Shown: positions 20,601 through 63,910 of the stretch, piece after piece
Layout of the letters: each line of letters starts with the position of its first letter
Position numbering within the stretch: position 1 is the first letter of the stretch
Assembly: GCA_030248135.1 (NCBI GenBank)
Contig: JASANC010005158.1
Coordinates: 22,443-86,442 of the forward strand
Source of the DNA: Theristus sp. LFF4_11
Lineage: Eukaryota > Nematoda > Chromadorea > Monhysterida > Xyalidae
Reading direction: 5' to 3'
Length of the DNA stretch: 64,000 bases
Program-made: the position numbers and the translations under genes
Notes under the pieces: model-generated
What the model was told of the DNA's origin: nothing
Databases searched by the model: none
The model's input: the letters and a program-made list of their open reading frames with translations, nothing else

Positions 20601-23600
20601 GCGAACACAATCGTGTGCGTTTGCAGTCATTTCCATTCAGTACACTGATTCTAATTCGGCATGTTGATTGGCTGAAACGCGCTGGCATCCTAACACACAG
20701 AATTGGAAGCAAACCAAAGCAACTGACTGGCACAAAGCTCTCCCGCAGATTGGTCTCTCTGTTTGCTTTCAGCTGTTGATCTCTGCTGCTGCGTTCGCGG
20801 TGTTGCTCCTTGCGCGACGACGACAGATGATGATGATGATGATGTTGTTGTTGTTGACTAGGCTGGTGAGCTTGCTGGTGTTGTTGTTGACGGATACGGT
20901 CGGAGCTAACGTGAACAAACAGTGCTTCATTGAATAATGTGAAACTCAGACACCAAGACAAAGTTGCCACTGCGCCAACGTTTGCCATTGAATGCAAGTG
21001 ACTCACACAGAGCTGTGCGTGTCTGCCTCGCTGGACATGACCGACGAAGAGACAGCCGAGTCGCGCATCGACGGCGGCAGCTGCGGCACGTAGTTCGTGT
21101 GGTACGGATTCGGTGGGATGATCGGTCTGCAACGCACAACGCACAATGCACACACAAACCACCGACACGTCTTCCGCTAGTATCTCAACTCGTCTCAGCT
21201 TTTTTGTTGTTTCCTATTTTACAACCATAATTATTGAGTATTCAAATCATGTAGCCTGTTGTCGCTGTTGTTGTTTTCGTCTGCAGCACCAAACACCCCA
21301 AAATGCCATAAAACACGACGGCGCCTAACCGCGAGTAAAAATCAAATAAAAATTCGAAAAACTTTGCTCGCTGCGTTTGTCAGTTTGTCAGGTTGTGTTG
21401 TGTGTGAAAAACAACGACTGTGTTGTGAAATCGCGCAATAAAAATTGCTTGCGGCTGCATGCGCGCATTCAGTTTCGAAACGACACAATAAAAATGCTCG
21501 GCAGCACGGCACGCTGCAGTAGCAGACTCATAAAAATAGCGCCGTTAAAACTGCCGTTTCCGAGAGACAGTCGTAAACCAGGTGAACAATGCTGTAAAAA
21601 CTCTGCGGTCGACCATAATTAATGAACTTGAATAGCGATGGTTGGTGGCGGTTTATGGGCGATTTCGTGCCACACAGACACAAACAACAGCAGCGACAGC
21701 AAGCTCACGACGCTCACTGCGTTGCACTCACGCAGGCTGCCGGTGTGTCGCGGCACGTCGCTGCACCACGGTGGCGCTGAGATTGCTCGCAGTCAACGGA
21801 CACGGCTGTTGCTGTGACTGTTTGCTGCAGCCAGCGCCACTCACCGACGCTGTCGTCGTCGTCTGCAACGGAGCGCCATTGTTCTTCGCTGCACTCGTCT
21901 GTTTCAGTGTCGTTTTGTCAGTCGGTTGACTCGTGACCGATTTCGAAGCGATCGCGTTCGTGGTGGTGCCCGGCGTCTGTCGCGGCGGCAACGGCGGCGG
22001 CATCGACTTCTTTGTGGCAGTCGCCGAGAAGTCAGTCGATTGCGAAGTGGACGGCTCTTGCGAATCAGCAGCGTGCAGAAACGGAGTCGCGTTTTGATGA
22101 CTAGCAAAGTTGCTGTTCTGTTGTTGCTGTGCGGCCAGTGCGCGCTCCACTGCCAACAGCGTCAAACGTGTTTGACTGGCGTTTGTGTCGGAGGAATCGG
22201 CTTCCTCCTGCAGTGGCGGCAACGGACCTGGCTCGATGGAGGCACGCGCGCAGCCAGCCAGCTCCTCACCGTTGACGCTCGATGCTGACGACGAATGAGC
22301 GCTGTGCGGCCTGCAATGTTGCAATGCTACAGTTGGCTGCGTTCGCTGTGCCCGATCAGCCACACTGAAACGCATCTCTCTCTTGCTCTTTCTATCCATC
22401 GACAACAGCATCTTCTTTTTCGATAACTCGTGAAAAGCTGCCCAATTGTGCAATTCAAAACAGTTGCGAATCAGCTGCAGTGCTGTTTGTTGACTGGGTC
22501 GTCTTGCACTGCAGCACACTGAACACTTACGCACAAAAGCAAGCACCGACCTCGATGCGCCGGCAGCACTGGCCGAGTCGGCCGTGTTGGCGGCGTGCTG
22601 CTGTATGGCGGCCATGTACACGTCGGACTGGACGAACGCCGCGTGCTTCGTGTGCAGCGCCTGCAGCACCTGCGCGCGCGCCTCATCAAAGATCTGCCGT
22701 CGCAGCTGGTGCTTGTGGATGCTGTCGACGATGGCGTGACTGACTTGCGGCGCGATCCAGCGCAGTATGCCGGAGGTGTGCGCGGCGGCACCGCTCTGCT
22801 TGATGTAGTTGCGGTAGATGCCAAGGATCAGCTGCTTCGCCTTGCGCGCCTCCTCCGCCTTGCTCAGGTCGAGCCGTGCGAGCGCCTCGCACGCGAAATA
22901 GAACTCGGTCAGTGGTTGCGAGTGCTCCTGCTCCAGGAACTGGCTGAAGCACTGCAGACCTGCACAGTGGTGGCGTTTTGGCAACCAGCAAATCAAAAGC
23001 TCCCATCGAAACTCTATGGCTGTTTTTGTCTTTGACAGTGCAGTCAGTGCGACTAAATCGAAACAATGCAACTCATGCAGCAACGTACAGCACGTTTGTT
23101 CAAAGTTGTCACTTTTTTTGCACAACATAAAGCTTACGAAAGAAGGAAGACCATGTTAGGATTTACAAGAGAACATATTTAGCCACTAAAACGGTGTTTG
23201 ATAAGAACCAAACCAAATTCATTCTTCTTATTGTAGTTCAAAGTTTCGTATGCTCTGTATTTTGCGAAAAACGGACAGGTGTAAACAAAGATACCTTCAT
23301 AATCATTGAGCACATAGTGCAGGTCCTTTGCCCACCGCATACAGGGCGGTGTGGATCGCTCGGAGGAGCACGGCGACGCCTCGCCCGACTGCTCCAAGGT
23401 GATCGGTGCCTCTTCGGCGCCCTCGCGTGCAAACTCCGACAGCGAGCCGGTCTTGCTGGCCTGCGATGAGCCGATCGTTGATGAGTGCAGCGTCATGATG
23501 ACCGGCGGTGGACTGGCGCAATGTGAGTGTGACTGCTGCTGCAATGACGACCGCACTGCATTCACGTTGCTGCTGTTGCCAGCCGCGTAGCTGCTCAGCA

Positions 23601-28001: not shown

Positions 28002-31000
28002 TTATTCGTTCGGCTCGACTTTGATTGGAATGATTGCATTGGTCTGCGTTGACGAATCCGATGGCAACGAAGTGTCTATTGGCTCTGGTGAGACGCCAAT
28101 CATTGGTGAGCCTGTGCGAGTCGTTTCGTTCGTGTCGATCATGACGTTCTGGAACGTGCGGCTCTGGTTGTCACAATCGGATGCGAAGCTCTCCGTCGAC
28201 CACGACCGCTCAAACAGATCGTTCACGTTCAACGGCACTTTCACATCGGCCGTGTCCGTCTCGTTTTGCGTCTGTCGCTCCAGGAATTCTTCTGAAATGC
28301 TTTGATCGAAGTGAACACCATCTTTTTCTCAAAAAGAATGAATGAATGAAGCAAAATGAATTTAAAAACGAAACTTAAAACGAACTAGCTAATAAGTCGA
28401 GCAGCGGATCAGGCGTCGGTGTCGGTGTGACGGCGTTGCCCGAATCCTGTTGGCAGAAATGCGCGTTCGCCAACGGATCGATCATGTGCAGTCCGTTTTG
28501 CACGCGTGCTGTCGGTACTGAGATTTTGGAAGAAAAAGAGATCACTGCTTGCTTGAGACACACGCAAGGCAAAAACGACACGCCATTTTACAACTGATGT
28601 TCCAGAACTACACATCAGCAAAAGAGCCAAACAAGAGAGCGTAACTATGATGGATTTATTCGAACGTGTCGCACCGAAATGACGTCGTTTCCTGTTCGTC
28701 ATGTACAGCACCAGAATTTCAGTTACGCAAAAGGGTCAGCCAAACTGAAAGTCCGGGTTCTTGTGCCCGACAAGTGCATGCTTTGAGCACATGATCTGAT
28801 TTCGATAAGACAGGTTCGAAAACATGAAGTGTACTGAGGCAGAGACCAGGTCGCTTGTGGAGGGCGGCCAGATTGCGCCGATGACACGGCTCACAGCGGT
28901 AGTACTCGGTGCCGCAGCTAGCCGAGCCAACGTGATTGTAGTAGTAGGCACGAGCGGCGTGCTGCACGCGCAGCTGGGCGTGGCGTCGGCCGTGACGCTG
29001 CTCGAGCACTGCGGCCACCGGTGTCCAGCCAGTGCAGCCGGCTGTCGCCTCCACCACCAACACGTCTGCGTCCGTGCAAAAGTGCTCACGCTGCAGCGGA
29101 TTCACCAGGTGCACGCCGTCGCGAACGCGTGCCCACGGAACTGCAAACAATCACCAACAGCTGGCTTATTTCACAGCAATCATAGATCAACTGACCGTTC
29201 GTTGATGTCGCTGAGTGGAACAAAAGAGCACGTTGCATGCCACACTGATGGATTGGCGGCATTTGGACGCTTTCGCTCATTGAAGGTTTGTAATTAGTGA
29301 GTAAGCTCATGCTACTTGGACGAAGACTGACACACAGGCTCACTGGACTGCACGTTCTGTGTAGAATGACATCACCCAATGTCGATCAGTCTGTCGATCT
29401 CAGTGCCACCCAAACAATCAGCATCGCAACCAAACTGAAGCACGCTCCCACCAGGTCGTTTCTCCATAGCAGCACGATTCATGCGATTGCAGCCGCGACA
29501 CGCGAATCGCAAGGCACCGTCCGCCTCGGCGTAGCAGAACGCGTACAGGTAGCTGCGTTGTTGGTGGTCGACACGCAGCAGAGGATGCTGGCGACCTGGC
29601 CGGTACTGCAGTTGTGCTGGCGTGGGCGTCCAGCCGGGCGCATCAGGCATGCACTCATCCTGCGCTGAACAGTCGGCCTCATGCTGACAGAAATGCTCAC
29701 GAGCGAGCGGATCGATCATGTGCATGCCCTCGTACACACGGGCACACGGAACTGCAAACATGCAGCACAGTTGCAATAACAGAAATCGCAGTCACGTTAA
29801 CACCGTTTGCAAATAAGAGTGGGGGGCCCTAGGAACATTCCGTGATACATGGAAAAGTTTTTAAACCAAGGGTGCAGGGACATTCTACTAATCAAGGCGC
29901 TTCAGGTTTACCCCCTGAGTACCCCCTGATTATGCCTATAAAGGTCGTTTTTAGGGTGCGGAAGTTGAAAAACCCTCGATTTTTTGCGATTTTTCGCAAA
30001 GTGTACCTTTTTAGCCCTACCGTATCTCGTAGTTGCACAGTTTCTGGAACCTCACACAGTATTCACGTGAAAGATCTTGCGGAGTTCTTTAAGGCCCTGT
30101 ATCAATGAGCCCTTGCAAGGGGGGTCCCTGAGGCGCTACGACGCTAGTTAAAATTACTTTTTTTTAAAAATTACGCTATTTTTTTAAAACATTTTTTTTG
30201 AGCTCATAAACACAATTTTTCGATTTTCATTTTTGGTTCTACAGGGGGGTTTTCGGGGTCGCTGAATTCGAATCTGATCTTAGATTTTTGCCCCGGGCAT
30301 TTTTTTGCCTTAAAATTGGGCAAAAACACATTTTTTTGCGTTTTCCAGTGTTTTTTGATTTTAATTTTCAATTTTAAGTGCGGATTTTTTTAACAAAGCT
30401 GTTTTACAACAGCCTTACAACCGCTGTATCGGAATCAGTTTTGATATTTTGCAACTGACCATTTGCCCACCCAAAAAATGGGTAAAAAGTTGATTTTTTT
30501 TGCTTTTTGCACACGTTTTCGTTTTACAGTGAAAAAATCAAGTTAGAAACAACTTGTAATTTTAATTTTTAATTCTACATGGAGGGTTTCGGGGTCGCTA
30601 AATTCGAATTTGACCTTAGATTTTTGTCCCGGGCCTTTTTTTGCTTTAAAAGTTGGGCAAAAACACTTTTTATGCGTTTTCCAGTGGTTTTTTGTTTTAA
30701 TTTTTAATTTTAAATGCGGATTTTTTTAACAAAGCTGTTTTACAACAACCACACAACAGCTGTATCTGAATCTGTTTTGATATTTTGCAACTGACCACTT
30801 GTCCATTTAAAAAATGGGTAAAAAGTTGATTTTTTTGCTTTTTGCACATGTTTTCGTTTCACAATGAAAAAAATCAAGTTAGAAACAACTTGTAATTTTA
30901 ATTTTTAGTTTTCCAGGGAGGTTTTCAAGATTGCTGAATTTGAATCTGACCTTAGATTTTTGCCCCGGGCATTTTTATTGTTTTAAAAATAGGGCAAAAA

Positions 31001-34000
31001 CACATTTTTATGCGTTTTCCAGTGGTTTTTTGTTTTAATTTTTAGTTTTAAATGTAGAGTTGTTTAAAAAACAGTTTCATAACAGCCTTACAACCGCTGT
31101 ATCTGAATCAGTTTTGATATTTTGCAACTGACCACTTGCCCACCCAAAAAATGGGTAAAAAGTTGATTTTTTTGCTTTTTGCACACGTTTTCGTTTCACA
31201 GTGAAAAAATCAAGTTAGAAACAACTTGTAATTTTAATTTTTAGTTCTCCAGGGGGTTTTCAAGATCGCTGAATTTGAATCTGACCTTAGATTTTTGTCC
31301 CGGGCTTTTTTATTGCTCTAAAAATAGGGCAAAACACATTTTTGTGCGTTTTCCAGTGGTTTTTTGTTTTAATTTTTAGTTTTAAATGTAGAGTTAATTA
31401 AAAAACAATTTCATAACAGCCTTACAACCGCTGTATCTGAATCAGTTTTGATATTTTGCAACTGACCACTTGCCCACCCAAAAAATGGGTAAAAAGTTGG
31501 GGTTTTTTGCTTTTTGCACACTATTTCGTTTCACAGTAAAAAAATCAGTTTAGAAACAATTTGTAATTTTAATTTTTAGTTCTACAGAGGGGTATTCGGA
31601 GTCGCTGAATTCGAATCTGACTTTAGATTTTTGCCCCGGGCATTTTTTTGCTCTAAAAATTGGGCAAAACCACTGGAAAACGCATAAAAATGTGTTTTTG
31701 CCCCATTTTTAAAGCAATAAAAATGCCCGGGGCAAAAATCTAAAATCAGATTTGAATTCAGCAATCTTGAAAACCTCCCTGGAAAACTAAAAATTAAAAT
31801 TACAAGTTGTTTCTAATTTGATTTTTCATTGTGAAACGAAAACGTGTGCAAAAAGCAAAAAAATCAACTTTTTACCCATTTTTTAAATGGACAAGTGGTC
31901 AGTTGCAAAATATCAAAACAGATTCAGATACAGCGGTTGTGTGGCTGTTGTAAAACAGCTTTGTTAAAAAAAATCCGCATTTAAAATTAAAAATTAAAAC
32001 AAAAAACCACTGGAAAACGCATAAAAAAGTGTTTTTGCCCAACTTTTAAAGCAAAAAAAGGCCCGGGACAAAAATCTAAGGTCAAATTCGAATTTAGCGA
32101 CCCCGAAACCCTCCATGTAGAATTAAAAATTTAAATTACAAGTTGTTTCTAACTTGATTTTTTCACTGTGAAACGAAAACGTGTGCAAAAAGCAAAAAAA
32201 TCAATTTTTACCCATTTTTTTGGGTGGGCAAGTGGTCAGTTGCAAAATATCAAAACTGATTTCAATACAGCGGTCGTAAGGCTGTTGTAAAACAGTTTTG
32301 TTAAAAAAATCCGCACTTAAAATTAAAAATTAAAACCAAAAAACACTGGAAAACGCAAAAAAATGTGTTTTTGCCCAATTTTAGGGCAAAAAAATGACCG
32401 GGGCAAAAATCTAAGATTAGATTCGAATTCAGCGACCCCGAAAACCCCCCTGTAGAACCAAAAATGAAAATCGAAAAGTTGTATTTATGAGCTCAAAAAA
32501 ATGTTTAAAAAAAATAGCGTAATTTTTAAAAAAAGTAATTTTAACTAGCGTCGTAGCGCCTCAGGGACCCCCCTTGCAAGGGCTCATTGATACAGGGCCT
32601 TAAAGAACTCCGCAAGATCTTTCACGTGAATACTGTGTGAGGTTCCAGAAACTGTGCAACTACGAGATACGGTAGGGCTAAAAAGGTACACTTTGCGAAA
32701 AATCGCAAAAAATCGAGGGTTTTTCAACTTCCGCACCCTAAAAACGACCTTTATAGGCATAATCAGGGGGTACTCAGGGGGTAAACCTGAAGCGCCTTGA
32801 TTAGTAGAATGTCCCTGCACCCTTGGTTTGAAAACTTTCCCATGTAGCGCTAGACCCCCCCACTCTTATTTGCAAACGGTGTTAACGTGCTGGTCAAATC
32901 AGATTATATGCAGTCGAGTCGAGTCGAACTGTAAAACTAAAACCATTGGCAATTTAGGCAATCTGGAAACTGGAATACCATGGTATGCTGATTGGCTTCA
33001 TCGAGATGGTTGACCAATCAGTGAGCCCGGTTCAAAAATGGCCAATCAGTTGATTGCCCATGATTTTCAAAGCTCCGCGCCGAATCAAGCATCTTACCAA
33101 GCCGCTTCTCTTGCAGCGTGCGATTTAGCCGATTACACGCACGACATCGAAACAACAAAGCGCCGCTGGACTGAATGCAGAACGCGTAGACATAGCTGCG
33201 GTCACCGTCGTCAACACGCACATGCGGGTATTGACAGCCGGCTCGTTGGATCAACGTTGCCCTCGTTGGCGTCCAACTGTGCTGCATGCTGCTGCCAGCG
33301 GTTGGTTCGGCCACGGTGCGCTCTCTGATTTCAGTGGTGCCACCACAGAAATGCTCACGTGCGAGCGGATCGATCATGTGCATGCCGTCGCTGACGCGTG
33401 CCCACGGAACTGCATTGAGTGGAACGAGTCGACTGTGAAACACGTGGAAACTGCTGCCGTCACCATGTGACATCACGATGACATGTGACTTTGGAACCAG
33501 AAAAGTTTTAGCGCATGGCTGACTGTGTGTGATTCTGCTTTCTCTTGGTAATCTGTGAGATCTATTTTGCGTAAAAAACGTTTTTTGGCAACTTGGAGGG
33601 CACCAGCGGTGTGCGTCAACGACAACAGCGTTTCACGCAACACCACTGCCCAAACCAACCAGGTCGTTTGTGCTTCTGTGTGCGATTGATGCGATCACAC
33701 TTCCTGCATCTGAAGCACATCGCGCCAGCGGCATCGTTGCTGTAGGCGTACACATACGTCTGCTGAGCATCGTGCACTCGCAGGTACGGATGCAGCAGAT
33801 TGGCACGGTGCACCAGGTCAGCAGGCACTGGAGTCCACGAATCGACCTCGGCCACTGGCGACTCGTGCCGGGCGTCGGCAACGGCTGGCGGCTGAGGCTG
33901 CTCGCAGACGTGCGCACGCGCCAACGGATCGATCATGTGCTTGCCGTTCAGCACACGCGCCCACGGTGCTGCAACAACACAACGTGTGCTTTTGTTGGGC

Positions 34001-37000
34001 ATCCCGAATTCACAGCTCAGTTGGTTGTATCACATTTGACCGACCAATCAGTGCATCAGACAAATGATGCAATCCATGAACTCAGGTTGCGCACAAATGA
34101 TGCAATCCATGAACTCAGGTTGCGCACAAATGATGCAATCCATGAACCCAGGTTGCGCACAAATGATGCAATCCATGAACTCAGGTTGCGCACAAATGAT
34201 GCAATCCATGAACTCAGTTGCGCACAAATGATGCAATCCATGAACTCAGTTGCGCACAAATGATGCAATCCATGAACTCAGGTTGCGCACAAATGATGCA
34301 ATCCATGAACTCAGTTGCGCACAAATGATCCAATCCATGAACTCAGTTGCGCACAGATCTGCGCGGCGCCTCACCGAGCGTTTTATCGCCAGTTTCCTTG
34401 ATTTTGCGTGCGCACGGTTCACAGCGGAAATAGGCGGAGCCAAACTTTTCGCAGTTCCAGCGGTACGTGTGCTCGCGACGGCCGTCGACTACGCGCACGT
34501 GCGGCCGCCGGCGTCTGTCGCTGTAGACCAGCTCGGCTGCGGTCGGCTTCCACGGCTGCATCCGGCACTTTGCGGCACGCAGTCGCTGTCTGCTCAGCGG
34601 CGTGCAGAAGTGCGCCCGCGCCAACGGGTCGATCGTGTGCAGACCGTTGGCGACGCGCGCAAAAGGCACTGCAAACCGTTAGACTAGCCGATCAGAAAAG
34701 TGTGGAACACTATCTCACTTGATTTAGTTACACGATGAAAATCGTTTTGCCACCAACGAACCGGGCCGTTTCTCAGTGGTCTTGTTGTTCAGGTTGTCGC
34801 AGGCCCTGCACCGGAAGCTCGTGTATCCGCTGGTGGCGCAGTTGTACGCGTACACGTAGCTGTGCTCGCCGTCGTCGACACGCACATGCGGATGCCGCAG
34901 GCCTGCCCGTTGCACGACGGTCGCCTCGCGCGGCGTCCAGTCGGCTTGCGGCACAACGTTGAATCGTGAACGCGACGCTTTCGGCGAACAGAAATGCGGC
35001 CGTGCGAGTGGGTCGATCATGTGCAGGCCGTTGTGCACGCGAGCCGTCGGCACTGCAACGTACGATGGGCAGTTGCAAATGTGCAGTGGTGCTGACAAAA
35101 CAGCACAGAGTCACACAATGGTTGGATTGTCTGTTGAGTCGAATGCACCAATGCAAACCCTTCCAAAGTGAACATTGCCCATAGCAACAGTGACCAGGCT
35201 TCTTGTCGGCGGCAGCGAGCGTCCGATTGTGCCAGTCGCACGCCTTGCACCGAAAGCTGAGCACGCCGTTGCTCTCGGCGCTGTACGAGTACGTGTAGCT
35301 GCGGTGGTCGTGCACGAGCAGCACGTGCGGATGCAGCATGCCCTCGCGATGCACCAGCGTCGCCGGCGTCGGCGTCCAGCCGGGTGTCTCGAGCAGCAGC
35401 GACGTTCGTCGTTGCGAGGCCTCGGCGGCACCGCCGCACATGTGCGCGCACGCCAACGGGTCCACGAGGTGCTCGCCGTGCTGGACACGCGCCGTCGGAA
35501 CTGACACAATTGCGCACGCCTCAGTGACACTTATACTGTCGCATTAAATCATCGGTAACGGTAACTCTTTGGTCAGCTTGGCTTGGGAAGCTTGAATTAG
35601 ATTCACTGACTGGTTCTAACCTGCCAATCAGCATGCACGAATGAAACGCACAAGACCTCTATGCTTTACATTTTGAAAGGGCGCAAATATGCGAAAGTGC
35701 GATTGCATTGACATTGCATTAATTCATCCAGTATGTTCATGAACATTTGAAAATCCATTTCGTTTTTGAGCTTCCATTCTCTGGTGCTCAAATCTCAAGA
35801 AGCCACGCGTACTCGGCTGTTTCTTGTCGTCCGGAGCAGCGCGATTCAGGCGCGCACACGCACGACACTTGAACGTCATGCAGCCGTTGGCGTCATGACT
35901 GAACGCGTAGTCGTACGTGCGATCGCCAGCGGGCACCAGCAGCCGTGGGTGCATGCTGCCTGCGCGGTACACCAGCTGTGCCGGCGTGCGTTCATAGCTG
36001 GCAACACCGCCAATCCGCTCGTGCTGCAGCATCGCGTTCGTGTGAGCCGGCTCGCAAATGTGCGCCCGTGCCAGCGGATCGATCATGTTCAGTCCATTCG
36101 ACACGCGCGCCCATGGAACTGAAATCAAACTTGTGCCTTTCAACTTGAAACTTGAGTCGCAACTTTCAAATTGTAAACTTTTCTCTAATATGAAGGTTAA
36201 AACTGCACTGCCATAACGCAATGTATTTTCTCAAGCGCTCATTCTTACCAACAATCTTCTCGCCGGTGGCTCTACTCCTGCGAGCACAGTGCTCACAACG
36301 GAAGTACGTCGACCCAAAGCGTTCGCAGGCCCATCTGTACATGTACGTGCGTTCGCCGTGTTGCACTCGCAGCTGCGGCCGTCTGTGCCCCTCAACCTGA
36401 ACCAGTACCGCCTCGGTCGGTTTCCATTTCTTTTGCAGGCCGAAATGCTTCTTGCGATGCGCTTTGTGACTGCAGAAATGCGGCCGAGCCAGCGGATCGA
36501 TGGTGTGCATGCCGTTTGCCACACGAGCCGTCGGCACTGAAAGCAGCACAAACTCTGAAGGGATGTTTAGTTTTCATGAGGATTTCTGGCATCTTTTTGA
36601 AAATCATTTTTCACTGATTGCCTGATACCTATGCGACAGTGTGGTTGTGGAAGTAACGGTGGTGACTTTGTCGCCATGGTAGAGTAAGGACTACGGAGGT
36701 TGGCGCTGCCGCCGATGCACCTTTCCTTTCATCATCCAGCGGCACATTTCATCACACCGTCGCACGGGTGTGCTGCCTTCTCCTACTTGAATTGCCCAGT
36801 CGACCAATCACCCAATCAAGCTACCTAATCGTTTCTCCACCGCTGCCGCATTCAGCCGACTGCACTCGCGACACTGAAACGTCGAATATCCACAAGCGTC
36901 GTTCGTGTGCTTGTAGACGTACGTGCGCTGCTCAGCATCCTCAACGAGCAGCTGCGGGTGGCGACAGCCGTCGCGTTGCCTGATGATCGCCTTCACCGGC

Positions 37001-40000
37001 GTCCAGTCGCTCGGCGGTCGAAACAGACCGGGGCGTTGCGACTCGCTCGCACAGAAGTGCGCCTCCGACAACGGATCGATCATGTGCATGCCGTCCTTGA
37101 CGCGCGCCCACGGCACTGCAACGCACAGCAGCGGCGTGACAAAACTGCACTTACAAGCTCTGCAGCATTTACACACGTTCCCGATTGAGAGCACTCATGA
37201 AAGCGCAGACCGGGTCGCTTCTGCTCGGCGACGCGATTCAGCCGCGCACAGGCGCTGCACCGGAACGTCATGAAGCCGAACGCCTCGTGGCTGAAGCCGT
37301 AGTTGTACGTGCGCTCGTTGTGCGTGACGCGTAGCGTTGGGTGCTGGCGATTCGGGCGATACTGCAGTATGGCCGCTGTGGGCGTCCAGTCGGGTGGCGG
37401 CTCAAACGAGTGTCTGCCCGTGTTGCTCGTCTCGTCCGAGCAGAAATGCGCACGAGCCAACGGATCGATCATGTGCAGGCCGTTGCGCACGCGTGCCACC
37501 GGGACTGACAAGTAACAATATTGGATTGTTGCCTTTTTCAGGAGTTCTGCCACTGTGTTTCTTCCGTTTTTTGGTTGAAAACGTGCCCGAAAACACGACT
37601 CACTGGGGCGTTTCTGTTCGGCAGCGCGGTTGGCACGTGCACAGGCGCGACACTTGAACGTCAAATATCCGTTGGCGTCGTGCGTGTAGTAGTAGGCGTA
37701 GGTGCGCTCGCCCGCGTGCACGCGCAGCGTTGCGTTCAGACAGCCACTGCGGAACTCCAGGTCAGCCGGCGTCGGCGTCCACCCGGGCGTCTCGAACTCA
37801 ACCAAGCCGGATCGAGCCGCGTTTTTGACGCTCTCACAAAAGTGCTGCCGGCCGAGCGGATCGATCAGATGCTTGCCCTTGTAGACGTGCGCCCATGGAA
37901 CTGCAAGAAAGCATCACTGAAAAAAACACCGGAATCAGGTTGCGAAACGTGAAGCAGTCACTCCAGCAGACGTACTCGGCCGTTTGTCGCCCTTGCGATA
38001 CTGAGTGTAACAGGAGTTGCACCGAAAATACATGCAGCCCTTCAGTTTAGTGACGTAGGTGTAGTAATAGGTGCGCTCGGGTGTATCGACACGCAGCTGC
38101 GGGTGCAGACGATTGTTCTTGTGCAACAGCATTGCTTCCGTTGGCTTCCAGTTCGACTGAGCGGTGTTCCGTTTGAATTTGAGCTGAAATTTACACTTTA
38201 TAGCTTATAGAATGAAGTTGTTGGAAGTTTGTTGCGCAATAAAACAACCGCGCACTCTTCCTAATTTGCCGTCGACTCGTTTCGGCTTGCAGAAATGCGG
38301 TCGCTCGAATGGATCAGTGGTGTGCACACCGTTCAGTACACGAGTCATTGGCACTGAAACAGGGAAGGCAATGAAAGAAGCGAATACAGACAAGTAAATG
38401 ATAAAAAACAAACAAATTAGTCAGCTGGAAATTGTAATCATCAAGCGGATGCGGAGGACTGAATTGAAATAATAGATTTAAAACCCATAACCGGTCGCAG
38501 GCAGACAGACCAGGTCTCTTTTTCTCCGCCCTGACGTTGAGTTGTTTGCACGCAGAGCACGAGAAGCTTTTCGATCCGTCCGCGTTCAGCGCGAGCGTCT
38601 TGTTGCACGCCTGCACCGAGTACAAATAGACGCGCTGGCCGTCGCAGACACGCACACGCGCGTGCAGCCACTGCTCACGTCTGATGATGTGCGCGCGCGC
38701 GCCAACGCTGCTCACTGGCGGCAGCTGCAATCACTGCTCTGCATGTTGCACGTTCGCTAGTGTTGTCGCTGCGCTGCCAATCAGCTATGATCTTTGATTT
38801 TGGTCCCGAGACTCAATGTAAGCAGTTTCATGCATGACGCGGGAATTCAAAATTGGTAAAGTGATCCGAGTCCCCTTAATAAGGCCGGCTCACTTTGGCT
38901 ATTCTGAATGACCACATGAAGAATGAAACCCGGTTTCCTTTCACGTTTACGTCGCATTGAGTCGCAGGACTTAAAGAAAAGATAATAGTGGTACGCACAC
39001 GTGCCAGGACTGTTTTCTCTTTTTCTAATAAGGAAAACGGTGGTGCATGTTCTCCCGTCAACCATGAACTCGCCTCTTCCTTTGGCTCATCTTCTGCTTC
39101 ATCCGCATCAACATTGTCTTCCACGTCTATTGCCGATATGGCAGCCAGCGAATTGTGGTTGTTCAAAAGTTTCGTCAGAAAGTCTGGCTCTTGTGCCTGT
39201 GCGTCCGCCATCGATGGGGATGCGTGCTCAGCAGCTGTGCTTGCGAAATCGGCTTGTGTGCACACGTGCGAGCCGGCAAGTGGGTCGTTCACGATCACGC
39301 CGTCTCGCACTACTGCTCGGGGCACTGAACACAAAGAAAACTTGCAACTGCAACAAAGCAGTCAAAAACAATCAAGCGAGTAATGCTGAAAAACAGACAT
39401 CCATCGAAGTGAGGCTATTCAAATGCTATCAAACAACCAGTAAGCCAGTTCTCAAGCGCAGTAAAGAACAAAACAAAAAACCATGGGAACTCTCACCAAC
39501 CAATTCGCGTCGTTGTATATCGTTCATTAACGTGCACACAATGCGAACACTCGTAAATGGTGTAGTTTTGCTGTTCGTTTACGCCAGTGTTGCGGTACGA
39601 GTAGACACGCGCACAGTCACTGACGAACAGCACTGGCTGCTTCTCATTCTCAGAGGCGCCCGTTATCGCCTAAAACGCGCTTTCATTAAGTTTTGGTGGA
39701 AAGCTGAGACGGGTGCGCTGGCTTCCGTAGTGAAGTAATATGGGGCACTGGTCCGGCACACCAGAGACGTCGGTTCGAATCCCACCAGAGGTTCAAAAAA
39801 AACCGATTCCCATCTCTTTCGATGATAGAACACCACAAACGATAGATCTATTATGATCTTTTATTTTGGTCCCGCCACTCAATGCGCCCATAGATGGGTA
39901 AACAGTTGCATGCAGGACGCGGGAATTCAAAATAGGTGAAGTGATCCGTGTCCCCTACATACAGCCGAGTCACTTAGGCGACTTTGATTTGCCACATAAA

Positions 40001-41943
40001 GATTGAAACTAGTTTTCTTTTCACATCTGCACACCTATTCAGTCGCGGAACTTAAAAATTGATATTAAATCTTTCGGCGTTGAAAGCGACTCTGCAAGAA
40101 AAATGTTTAAAAAAATCAAAAGAGATACGAACCCGAGATCCGCGCGTTGTGCGCGCGAGCCGGTTTGTCTCATTGACGCCTCGTGCAATCGCAGACTGAG
40201 AGGCGCCCGCTCGATCCAGCGGCTCAACAACGACACTGATGTCCCCGAAAGAGGGCGACACAACGTCCACCTCGGAACCTTCAGAGCCAAATTCGGATGC
40301 CTCCAACTCAAAACCACCGGACGCATCGAACACTGGCAAACTCTGACCGTCATCATGCAACACCGTGCAACTGTTCGCGACTTGTTTGCTCGGTTTCGTC
40401 TTTTTGACCGCTGGTTGTTCATGTTGCTGCGATGTGCTTGGCTCACCATTGTCCAACGCCCGTTTTCTGACGGCCTCTGTCGAAACGTTGTCACTGGTAT
40501 TGATTGCAAAGTGCTCTTCAAACAAATTTCGAATCAACGGCGAATTTTGTTGGTCCACCAGATGTGTTGTGTCGTGGTCGGGTGGAAGCGAAACTGGAAA
40601 CGGTTCTGGCTGAAAAAACAAAACAGACGACGTGCAACGGATAACAAAAAGGATTAATAATTATATAATAGTGTATAATTGCAACAAAAACGTGTAATTG
40701 TGTAATTGCATGGCATTGTATGGGCTATATAAACTGTGATGAGTGCTCAGTCTGTTTTTATTGCTGTCGTAATCATCCGAATCGTCCTAATCAGCGTTTA
40801 TCTTAATAAAAACCCTTTCTATAATTTTTCTATAGTTGAGTTTTTCTTTTTTACCTCAGTCGTCACCACAAATGACAGTCGATCAGGTTGCAGCTCTCTG
40901 ATTGGTTGACAGGCACCGACCTCGGCAGTGATTGGTGGAAACAGCAGAGTGGCATTGCCCGTTGTTGCGCTGTCGTCTTGAAGTGCACTGGTGCTCGCAG
41001 CACTCGTGGATGAATTGGAAAACTGAAAACAAACAATTGAGAAACGAACAGTTTCAAAGAAATCACTTCGGTAATTTGAATGTGCCCACAAAATTCCAAA
41101 ACTGTGTTCAAATTCGCGCTACCGGTTCACTGGGCGTGACCGAGTCTGGCGTTCTGGCCGGGGTCAACTGCTGCAACAGACGATCCAATTCCAGCTCTTT
41201 CGATTCGATGCCGCGGAATACCATCTGAGAAAGAAACTACGGTTCAGCGGTAATTTATTTGGTCTCGAGAGTCATACGCGCGCTCCAGCCAATCAGCGTG
41301 CTGGATTGTGAACGAAAGCGTATGATCACGTTCCAACCCTTTTTGCTTGGACATTCGTATTTGCATTTTTCGTGACCGTATTTGAGATTGCGTCTGTTTT
41401 GCTTTTCCGTAACTAAAGTTGCTTGTACGTTAAAATGAAGAATCTGCAACATTGAAAACATCAGAAAAGCAGCGCCGACCAGCCGCATGTGGTCGCCAGC
41501 GAAATCGCGATGGGCCGATCTGATGTGCATGTTCAGCTGGCGTTGACTGCTGGTGGCCATGCGACATTGTTTGCATCTGTACGGGGTGTAGTCCAAGTGG
41601 TCGGTGGACACGTGGTCACGGAGGTCGTCCAGGGACTGCAACATTCAAAGCAACAACTCAGCTGGCGTCCCGTGTTTCTCTCTCGAACTGTTGTCTACTG
41701 ACACTCGGGCTTAAAAATCACACCAGCAGACACATCAGATGCGGTGCGCTTGCGTATGCGCGTACATGGGTGAACAAGCGCATACCAGTGCGCAGGTATC
41801 CACTGACACCGGACACCCTCAACAACAGTACCACATTAACGCAAAAAACTAGAACCATGTGAACTCTCAACACAAACCTCAAAATGCTCGTCAGCACATT
41901 CTGGGTAGCCTGAATCAATGAACGGACACGCAAACTGCGACAT
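28002..41943 (-). CDS. Giant C2H2-finger protein with novel tandem Cys/His domain array
   Basis: Twenty-four exons keep frame throughout (about 1976 aa). N-terminal block: 41878-41943, 41480-41635, 41123-41224, 40855-41022 and 40178-40609. Array: 39501-39669 (C-half), 39001-39324 + 38511-38714 (split copy), 38256-38353 + 37976-38183 (split copy), then single-exon copies 37604-37900, 37211-37504, 36825-37115, 36249-36536, 35813-36118, 35195-35500, 34762-35052, 34375-34668, 33660-33968, 33098-33409, 29452-29751 and 28847-29140, then 28386-28517 (N-half). Tail: 28002-28291. The N-terminus has a C2H2-like finger and a canonical one (YRCKQC...H-x4-H), then a Ser/Asp/Glu-rich linker with KKTKPSK. 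The repeat consensus is VP-x-ARV-x-NG-x-H-x-IDPLAR-x-H-x-C, W-TP-x-x-A, HP-x-LRV, RTY-x-Y, F-RC-x-AC-x-RLNR, EKRP. I do not recognise the domain. A nuclear, DNA- or chromatin-associated role is inferred from the fingers and the C-terminal IKVE SUMO motif. The first array junction (40178/39669) is the least certain. Confidence 0.8.
29793..32889. mobile_element. 3.1-kb foldback transposon with tandemly repeated arms
   Basis: The ends are inverted: CACGTTAACACCG at the left and CGGTGTTAACGTG at the right. They continue inwards as an inverted repeat (for example 29880-30110 against 32580-32820, nearly identical). The arms consist of about 330-base units repeated head to tail (about five in the left arm, about three in the right), each with CCCGGGCATTTTT, TTTTCCAGTGGTTTTTTG, GGGTAAAAAGTTGATTTTT and CAAGTTAGAAACAACTTGT. 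The turn is near 31675, so the arms are unequal. The same 78-residue frame appears in both ends only because they are inverted copies; no gene is claimed. It lies in the intron between array exons 33098 and 29751. Confidence 0.9.
33098..37900 (-). repeat. Core of the domain array: ten consecutive one-exon copies
   Basis: Ten exons of 288-312 bases follow one another with introns of about 95 to 965 bases. All start after AG with two bases completing a Val (Ala once) codon and all end one base into a codon, so any exon can be lost or gained without shifting frame. Each encodes one domain of 95-103 residues. H-x-C (HFC, HIC, HMC, HVC) and C-x2-C are invariant in every copy, spaced about 55-70 residues apart, the pattern of a single zinc site. 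Trp in [GD]-W-x-P (Trp missing in the 36118 copy), the H/R-P-x-[LV]-[RL]-V strand and a Tyr/Thr-x-Tyr strand are near-invariant. Confidence 0.85.
34061..34357. repeat. 32-33 bp minisatellite, nine copies
   Basis: The unit is CAAATGATGCAATCCATGAAC followed by TCAGGTTGCGCA, repeated nine times with small length variants (GG or G). It fills the intron between array exons 34375 and 33968, starting about 18 bases beyond the GTGAGG donor. Frames read through it are repetitive and not coding. Confidence 0.92.
38783..38976. repeat. Dispersed repeat T, copy 1
   Basis: Matches 39849-40060 in the same orientation. Landmarks are ATGATCTTTGATTTTGGTCCCG, GACGCGGGAATTCAAAAT, AAGTGATCCGAGTCCCC and GTCGCAGGACTTAAA. 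It lies in the intron that splits the first complete domain copy of the array gene (between 39001 and 38714). Function unknown; possibly two solo ends of one element. Confidence 0.75.
39748..39792 (+). other. tRNA-like 3' half (anticodon arm plus T arm)
   Basis: CTGGT-CCGGCAC-ACCAG forms a 5-bp stem with a 7-base loop. Four bases later, GTCGG-TTCGAAT-CCCAC forms a T arm with the B-box GGTTCGAATCC. No matching D arm or 5' acceptor strand was found upstream, and U33 of the anticodon loop is replaced by C. It is therefore not called a tRNA gene; a tRNA-derived SINE fragment or pseudogene fits better. It sits beside dispersed repeat T copy 2, inside an intron of the array gene. Confidence 0.35.
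39849..40060. repeat. Dispersed repeat T, copy 2
   Basis: Second copy of the family described at 38783-38976. It is slightly longer because of an insertion containing GCCCATAGATGGGTAAAC. Same orientation, about 1.07 kb away, in the intron before the first array exon. Confidence 0.75.
40640..40830 (+). mobile_element. Solo-LTR-like fragment
   Basis: Shares with the terminal repeat at 46908-47048 the ordered words TGTAATT, GGCTAT(A/G)TAA(A/G)CTGTGATGA, GTCTGTTTTTATT(G/A)(C/T)TGTCGT and TCGTCCTAAT(C/A)AGC. No internal region or second copy lies next to it, so it reads as a solo LTR. It occupies the intron between array-gene exons 40855 and 40609. Confidence 0.6.
41480..41943 (-). CDS. Exons 1-2 of the array gene: paired C2H2-type fingers
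   Basis: Exon 1 starts MSQFACPF at ATG 41943. Across the exon 1/2 junction runs C-x9-C-x13-H-x4-H (ending LRDHVSTDH), a variant first finger. It is followed by a canonical second finger, YRCKQC with C-x2-C-x12-H-x4-H, ending MHIRSAH. The linker between them is short (LDYTP). Splitting of the first finger by a phase 0 intron, with the fold restored on joining, supports the splice. Both fingers could bind nucleic acid or protein; the sequence does not tell which. Confidence 0.75.
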
Positions 41944-43180
41944 CGGGAACGTTTCTCTGCTGAAATTATGTGCCAAAATAACGCACTTTTCCCAGTTTTT
42001 TTGTTATTTGGCTGAATCGACCGCTGAAATCTGAAGCACAAGGCATATGATAAACCGAACAGGAGCAAACTTGAAAAACATGTTAAATAACACGAATCCG
42101 TTTGATAGTCGATCATCAGGAACCGAGTAAAAAGTTGTTAAAAAGTCAACATCATGTTTTCATTTTTTTTTTCATTTGTACGCGCGCCGGTTCCGGAAAC
42201 CCGAAGGTACCAAACTCCGGCGGAGACGGAGACGAAAAAAAAAATGTTTTCATTTGATCACTCAAATCGAAACACGATGGAAGAAAAAGGGAATATGAGA
42301 AAGTGCAATACACAAAACAGAGCCGCTTCCAATTCAACCTCACAAAAACGCTATGACAAAGAATAATATGCAGAACAACATGACAGTCAGCGATCCGTCA
42401 TGAAAATGAGACAGACAAACACCAGAAAAACAAAGACTTGAAAAGCCTGTTTTTGCCTGCTACAAAAACTAAGGTAAGTATAAATATAAAGAAAACAAAA
42501 AATAAAATACCAACCGGTCAAAATAAAGAAAATAAAACCAAAACCAAAAAAACTAAAATCAAATAACACTGATAACCAACTACATTCGACGCTGAAAGAC
42601 TCAATATAGAACATTCAAATGCGAAGCAGAATGGAAAACGCAAAAACATAAAAACACCAACAGCAACAATACAAACGCACACAGGCACACAGAGAGCGAA
42701 GATAAAACCAGTGAACGAAACGAATGGGTAAACGATCAATACAGGCAGCACAGCACATACACTCAGACGATAGTACGGGCAAGGCAGACACAGAACAAAA
42801 CAACAACGCACACAGCGTCCACACAAGAAATACGTGCAAATAGAACAACTCTTTTCACGTCGTCGTAGACAAGCCAACACATAATGCACGCGCCACACAT
42901 ACAATCCTGACCAACACAAACTCCATTTCAGTGGAGAACAAAAACTAACAAAAACACGAGCGATTTGTAAAACAAATATAACAGTCGAATGCAATACAAA
43001 ATCACTGCACGTCAATTTATTCACTGCATGTGAGTTTTGAACTGAAAAAAATCTAAAAATGCAACAAAAACACAGAAGAAATGAAGAAGTTCTGAATGAA
43101 AATGGCATTTTGAACTTCCCCATGAACAACCAAGAATATTGTAGCGTAGAATGACCGTAAACATTTTCAATCACTGGTCG
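41944..43180. other. Upstream of the array gene, no gene seen
   Basis: Contains the likely 5' UTR and promoter of the domain-array gene, then AT-rich DNA. At 42176-42235 lies GC-rich repeat copy B (inverted relative of 1402-1466). No supported coding frame. Confidence 0.5.
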
Positions 43181-62582: not shown

Positions 62583-62699
62583 AACGCAACGTCCAAAAAA
62601 ACATAATCATTGTCCAGTGTCGCTGAACAACACCCGTGTCATTAAAACACTTGTTGATTGAAAACAAAACAAAATCCGGATTGAGCAAAGCACACGGCA
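62583..62699 (+). promoter_or_regulatory. Very short VPS25-TRMT61A intergenic gap
   Basis: Only 117 bases separate the two coding regions. There is no room for a full terminator-promoter pair. A TTGTCCAG that could act as an (outron) splice acceptor lies at about 62609-62616. This fits, but does not prove, an operon with trans-splicing. Confidence 0.35.
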
Positions 62700-63910
62700 A
62701 TGAGCGCCGAAGAGGCTGAGCAGCCGGCTGAGTGTGACGAGGAGGCAGCGCGGCAGGCGCAGGCAGGGCTGCTTGCGAGCGCGCGTGACGTCATCGACGA
62801 GGGCGACGCCGTGCTCGTGTACGTGTCGTTCGGCCACATGTACCCGATCGTGGTGCGTCGCGGCATGACGCTGACCATGCGCTACGGGGCACTCCGGCAC
62901 GAGTTCATCATCGGGCGGCCGTACGGCAGTCGCGTGCAGGCCACGGCCGGCTACGTGCGCGTGCTGCGTGCCACGGCCGACCTGTGCACGCGCTCGATGC
63001 CGCACCGCACGCAGATCGTGTACACGCCGGACGCCGCCTACGTGCTCGCCGCGTTGGAGTTGACCGTCGGCAGCGTCGTGCTCGAGTCCGGCACCGGCAG
63101 TGGCTCCGTGACGCTGGCGCTCGCCGCTGCAGTCGCACCCAGCGGCCATGTGCACACGTTCGATGTGCATGCGCAGCGTGCACACGCCGTCGCCACACAG
63201 CTGCAGCAACACGCCATGGCACAGGTGTGCGCACGTCGCAGCACTCGAACGCACACACGACTCGAGCAAACTAAGCAAACTGCCTGTATTCGTTGCACTG
63301 CAACCTCGCAGCGTAGCATTGCAGTGTGTTGCACGTGCAACGTTGTATGGCTGAAATGTTTCACGCGCTCTCTCGTGCACAGTTTGTGACGACGCACGTT
63401 GGCGATGTGTGTGCGAGCGGCTTTGCCGGCGTGCGCAGTGACAGCGTGGACGCGGTGTTCTTGGACGTGCCGCGTCCGTGGGAGGCGCTGCCGTGGGCGC
63501 TGTCCGTGCTGCGGCGTGACCGTGCCACGCGTGTCTGCACGTTCTCCCCGTGCATCGAGCAGGTGTCACGGAGTACGATGGCGATGCGACAGCTCGGTTT
63601 CGTTCAGCTGAGCACCGTCGAGATTGTGCCACGTCACTATAAAGTCAGTCGACAGGCGACGCAACATTGGTGGCCGACGGACGACAGAAAACGGCAGCAG
63701 AACTGTGCTGGCGCTGCTGAGGACGACGGCAACGAGCAGCTCGTGTGTTTCCCGTGGCCCGTGCAGCAGCCGACGCACACCGGCTATCTGGAGTGCGGCC
63801 ACGTTGCTGCCGCGCCACTGACGCCCCACTTCTCCGTCCTCTTTTACGGTCGTACACACCACCGTTCACGTGACGCTCCTTTCAGACATACCCCATTTAG
63901 GTCTTCATAA
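62700..63910 (+). CDS. TRMT61A: tRNA (adenine-58-N1) methyltransferase catalytic subunit
   Basis: Two exons, 62700-63224 and 63383-63910 (350 aa). With TRMT6 this subunit methylates A58 in the T loop of tRNAs using S-adenosylmethionine. Seen: GDAVLVYVSFGHMYPI, RTQIVYTPDAAYV, the SAM-binding motif ESGTGSGSVTLALA (GTGSGS at residues 131-136), the catalytic-site motif LDVPRPWEALPWA, TFSPCIEQVSRS and RHYKVSRQATQHWW. All follow TRMT61A in order. The C-terminal tail after FSVLFYGR is family-atypical, Arg/His-rich and without clear homology. GC content is visibly higher than in the surrounding genes, especially in exon 1. Confidence 0.96.

Follow-up and report, generated by a model that had tools for sequence, protein, structure and literature searches.

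We analyzed a 64,000-nucleotide stretch of contig JASANC010005158.1 from the nematode Theristus sp. LFF4_11 (the window, whose positions are used throughout) and consider it probable that its minus strand encodes, in one protein, 15 tandem RYYR-CCHC domains (PF23674) that are split over neighboring exons, have a FLYWCH-like fold, and together make a multivalent nuclear DNA-binding factor. Since RYYR-CCHC is already in Pfam, the domain itself is known; the apparent novelty is an array of 15 copies in which the exon unit is offset from the domain.

Structure of the array

Half-unit profiles made from the copies detect 15 front halves and 15 back halves, which alternate strictly from 39651 to 28444. 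A typical front half reads W-x-P..A..L..LRV..R-x-Y-x-Y..G..F-x-C-x2-C..KRP, and a typical back half reads V-P-x-A-R-V-x-N-G-x-H-x-I-D-P-L..H-x-C. Counted in the register of the exons, the array has 14 complete copies and one half copy at either end. Twelve of the 14 complete copies occupy a single exon (95 to 103 amino acids each), while the other two are each spread over two exons (39324-38512 and 38353-37977). In every single-exon unit, a linker connects a back half to the front half that follows. Each unit has AG before it and GT after it, and all 12 are in phase 1-1: the codon split at the AG contributes its last two bases to the unit, and the codon split at the GT its first base. The donor is G/GT (the slash marks the exon border) in 10 of the 12 units and A/GT in 2 (37604 and 35813). 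C-x2-C and H-x-C are invariant in the 12 exon units and also in 17 domains aligned in the register proposed below. An initial annotation of the window had described these copies, their order, coordinates, and lengths, the predominance of one copy per exon, the phase 1-1 introns, and both invariant motifs, all of which our analysis bears out. We predict that these exons belong to one gene and, presumably on a single transcript, encode one protein.

Assignment to the RYYR-CCHC family

When each front half is joined to the back half that follows it across the intron, all 15 resulting domains match PF23674, with scores of 13.6 to 34.4 bits. The highest single-domain score is that of domain 1 (34.4 bits), which combines the leading half copy with the first half of the copy that follows it. 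Domains 3 to 15, spliced together, score 155.1 bits (expectation value [E], 4.4e-46) in 13 stretches for 13 domains, and a match of 155 bits to one Pfam family across 13 stretches is far beyond chance. In the register of the exons, 8 of the 12 units match, at 12.2 to 17.4 bits, and these matches end at profile position 51 to 56, which is the end of the exon. C44, C47, H79, and C81 are invariant in the 17 aligned domains, in the order C, C, H, C, and we take the CCHC of the family name to stand for these four ligands. The copies also have an R-x-Y-x-Y-like strand, which may correspond to the RYYR of the family name. The initial annotation had called the domain unrecognised, with the proviso that a strong Pfam hit would tell against this; PF23674 is such a hit, and the label is therefore wrong.

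Two observations weigh against the assignment. The curated PF23674 cutoff, which is set for a whole protein, is 27 bits; 2 of the 15 single domains exceed it and 13 fall below. In addition, the best stretch of the single-domain matches ends at profile position 66 to 72 of 79, despite the invariant H-x-C. Based on the 13 single copies under the cutoff, we regard the array as a divergent branch of RYYR-CCHC. Our search of one literature library found no paper naming "RYYR-CCHC" or "PF23674," and the 8 papers containing "RYYR" that it returned appear, from their listed entries, unrelated, so that the family is catalogued but apparently unstudied. More RYYR-CCHC-like genes, several of them multicopy and with or without an intron inside the domain, are present on contigs C1529, C3346, C3631, C2452, and C2783 of the same genome.

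Register of the domain

The join of front half, intron, and back half is gapless and of steady length (58 to 61 plus 22 amino acids in 13 domains). In contrast, the stretch from back half to front half within an exon varies from 15 to 23 amino acids in 12 linkers, a range that excludes the linkers of domains 1 and 2 and that of domain 3 (11 amino acids, shortened by the exon start). The array opens with a front half and closes with a back half, and the re-registered array therefore consists of 15 whole domains with no orphan halves, an order of halves that is also that of uninterrupted paralogs. With one such paralogous domain as the query against the same genome (G000, 159 megabases), all 12 matches cross the join in one frame and are stop free; one of the 12 is the query itself, two (C1529:2211 and C2210:26319) look like a single place on two contigs, and an uninterrupted query biases the search towards uninterrupted copies. 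Where paralogs do have an intron inside the domain, it is at the same point in C2452 (two donors, G/GT, and four acceptors seen) and a few codons further on than in the array in C3346, C3631, and C1529.

Based on the steady join, the linker-like variation within exons, the absence of orphan halves, and the uninterrupted paralogs, we place the domain across the intron, with its front half at the end of one exon and its back half at the start of the following one; the exon unit is a circularly shifted slice. The initial annotation had taken the exon as the unit, in which case the back and front halves within an exon would fold together into a separate, circularly permuted domain. A structure model of a single exon is indeed confident (predicted local distance difference test [pLDDT], 86.0; predicted template modeling score [pTM], 0.75), and of its strands, one (2-6) falls within the back half and the others (45-82) within the front half. 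The same evidence nevertheless favors the cut across the intron and make independently folding exons highly improbable.

Predicted fold and function

The domain is predicted to form strands and a short helix from C-x2-C onward along a FLYWCH-like path. A Foldseek search with the domain 4 model gave nothing at an E of <2.5, and FLYWCH surfaced only in a second look with VIA-align. The FLYWCH profile (PF04500), which finds 9 other places in the same genome, was not listed to an E of 10 for the 15 domains or the spliced stretch, a listing that is less deep than its nominal limit because HMMER filters drop most matches above an E of ~0.1. WRKY and GCM were likewise not listed to an E of 10 for these queries. 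Profile-profile comparison of the RYYR-CCHC copies with six FLYWCH copies from this genome gave a probability of 4.6% over 12 columns. The resemblance to FLYWCH proposed in the initial annotation is supported only at the level of the predicted fold, by structure comparison, and lacks a sequence-profile match to the family of human FLYWCH1, Mod(mdg4), and C. elegans PEB-1 and FLH-1 to FLH-3. The difference in ligand layout that it described is confirmed: FLYWCH ligands are C-C-H-x-H with wide C-C spacing, and the six aligned FLYWCH copies have C-x5-C or C-x7-C and H-x-H, whereas the array domains have C-x2-C and H-x-C. A PDB sequence search gave no match for one domain and, with a profile, an unconvincing best E of 0.95 (ribosomal). 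None of the 7996 candidates scored for the whole array in a set of 5.8 billion proteins was a match at an E up to 10, and NCBIfam gave a single unrelated line (E, 0.05) for three exon units.

The four invariant residues are consistent with the one zinc-type site per domain expected from the initial annotation, most likely a single four-ligand site at which C-x2-C and H-x-C would hold one zinc ion. Around the strand of Y28 and Y30, both of which are kept, positions 29, 31, 33, and 34 are variable (entropy, 2.5 to 2.8 bits in 13 domains), and if such a strand is exposed in a FLYWCH-like finger, its variable side chains could read DNA. A title cited in PMC6600431 states that the FLYWCH motif of C. 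elegans PEB-1 is required for DNA binding. The array protein would be placed in the nucleus, as a multivalent DNA-binding factor; the nuclear DNA- or chromatin-binding role suggested by the initial annotation is not contradicted by our results.

The same domains might instead form a protein-protein scaffold that does not bind DNA. According to PMC6600431, beta-catenin is a binding partner of FLYWCH1, and that paper calls the role of FLYWCH unclear; in addition, domain 1 has a long acidic linker after its back half. However, the net charge is positive in 13 of 13 domains (+3 to +10), and a probable C2H2 finger and a basic stretch lie upstream of the array, which makes a scaffold the rather unlikely choice. 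We also considered that the array is decaying and is not a working gene, as might be suggested by a foldback element and satellite within one of its introns and by a truncated stray copy (44727-44689). Contig C942, which we interpret as the other haplotype, matches 34215-43030 of the window in pieces with 97.5 to 99.5% identity; the thirteenth exon compared, 34668-34375, lacks one base in the alignment to C942 close to the end of that contig, which would also fit decay. In the 12 ungapped exons, C942 and the window differ by 11 synonymous and 9 nonsynonymous changes, which is a ratio of nonsynonymous to synonymous rates (dN/dS) of ~0.25 (P = 0.002 against no constraint). With this ratio, and with 30 of 30 half-domains of the window in open frames, decay is extremely improbable.

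Possible flanking exons, introns, and genome context

The exons are listed in Table 1. The finger in one possible upstream exon scores below the PF00096 cutoff of 25.2 bits, and a Pfam scan of the possible last exon and of the KKTKPSK exon gave no match. Of the two C2H2 fingers in the initial annotation, one is seen whole and the second shows only an H-x4-H tail, by eye. Its IKVE tail lies beyond the in-frame stop (at 28375) that ends the domain 15 frame and would therefore belong to the gene only if a donor just before the stop is used. If they are part of this gene, the C2H2-like finger, the basic stretch, and the IKVE tail would be in keeping with a nuclear protein.

TABLE 1 Exons of the array, possible flanking exons, and neighboring genes in the window
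Feature	Position	Strand	Basis
tRNA methyltransferase gene, GCD14/TRM61 type	62685-63910	+	PF08704, 105.9 bits
Possible upstream exon, one whole C2H2 finger and tail of another	41480..41640	-	PF00096, 20.0 bits; limits approximate, membership putative
Possible upstream exon, KKTKPSK basic stretch	40133..40610	-	Open frame; limits approximate, membership putative
Domain 1 front half (L..RVYSY..YECSHC)	39501..39651	-	Half-profile match 39651-39520, E 1e-6; donor G/GT by eye; exon 5' end approximate
Domain 1 back half (VPRAVV..DPLAGSHVC), long acidic linker	39001..39324	-	Half profiles, PF23674 in joined form; 3' end presumed
Domain 2 front half	38512..38703	-	Half profile; PF23674, 17.3 bits when joined
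Domain 2 back half (VPMTRV..DPFERPHFC)	38249..38353	-	Half profile, joined PF23674; exon 3' end presumed
Domain 3 front half	37976..38183	-	Half profile; spliced form PF23674, 28.9 bits
Domain 3 back, linker, domain 4 front	37604..37900	-	Half profiles, phase-1 borders
Domain 4 back, linker, domain 5 front	37211..37504	-	Half profiles, phase-1 borders
Domain 5 back, linker, domain 6 front	36825..37115	-	Half profiles, phase-1 borders
Domain 6 back, linker, domain 7 front	36249..36536	-	Half profiles, phase-1 borders
Domain 7 back, linker, domain 8 front	35813..36118	-	Half profiles, phase-1 borders
Domain 8 back, linker, domain 9 front	35195..35500	-	Half profiles, phase-1 borders
Domain 9 back, linker, domain 10 front	34762..35052	-	Half profiles, phase-1 borders
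Domain 10 back, linker, domain 11 front	34375..34668	-	Half profiles, phase-1 borders
Domain 11 back, linker, domain 12 front	33660..33968	-	Half profiles, phase-1 borders
Domain 12 back, linker, domain 13 front	33098..33409	-	Half profiles, phase-1 borders
Domain 13 back, linker, domain 14 front	29452..29751	-	Half profiles, phase-1 borders
Domain 14 back, linker, domain 15 front	28847..29140	-	Half profiles, phase-1 borders
Domain 15 back half (VPTARVQNGLHMIDPLANAHFC), then in-frame stop	28375..28517	-	Half profile, sequence reading
Possible last exon, acidic tail ending IKVEPNE	28002..28328	-	Open frame, phase-1 acceptor (TTTCAG/AAGAAT); membership putative
RGS-domain gene	21728-23155	-	PF00615, 48.2 bits

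The intron interrupting domain 13 contains the foldback element (29846-32846), whose outer arms are 324 nucleotides long and 99% complementary and enclose 336-bp satellite units in both orientations. The intron that splits domain 11 contains about nine repeats of a 33-bp unit (34060-34355). The stray copy is a truncated back half (VPLAHVRNGLHMI) on the minus strand, located 5 kb upstream of the array and preceded by an acceptor-like ttgcag, and is either a relic or an unrecognised exon. By eye, a similar stretch of ~40 or more bases occurs twice on the minus strand, near 39950 (..acacggatcactt..) and near 38870 (..actcggatcactt..), and there is a tRNA-like stretch near 39780; these are perhaps a short interspersed nuclear element in the 5' introns. 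In the genome, TTAGGC, the nematode-type telomere repeat, gave 8669 exact hits of four units (partly overlapping), and the reversed control gave 0. The canonical spliced leader SL1 was not found in the genome with up to 2 mismatches, where the SL1 family search scored 50 of 43697 candidates.

Origin and significance of the array

The simplest route of growth would be tandem duplication of an exon flanked by copies of one intron inside the domain, and each duplication would add a complete finger and keep the reading frame, though no single exon encodes a finger. Among 13 exons, front-half and back-half distances are correlated with an r of 0.27 (P = 0.068) within the same exon and -0.05 (P = 0.58) within the same domain, which leans to exon-wise duplication but is not significant. 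Insect mod(mdg4) also has tandemly duplicated exons with FLYWCH domains (PMC4667647), but its 3' exons provide alternative C termini through trans-splicing, whereas the exons of the array would be used in series and halve each domain. Because the single-exon units are phase 1-1 and carry a back half and the next front half, skipping one would give an in-frame hybrid finger. Exon interchange is thus compatible with the intron phases, but it is very unlikely that the exons are in fact interchangeable half-finger cassettes, whose skipping or choice would build hybrid fingers and new specificities with frame and fold kept.

If half fingers were mixed by splicing, a single gene could yield many DNA-reading proteins, which would open a direct path to combinatorial recognition of DNA. 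More generally, when a repeated domain is interrupted by an intron, taking each exon for one domain conceals the family. The array is a natural 15-copy series of a Pfam domain for which FLYWCH is proposed as a fold relative, and the further RYYR-CCHC-like genes in this genome are an expansion worth a tree.
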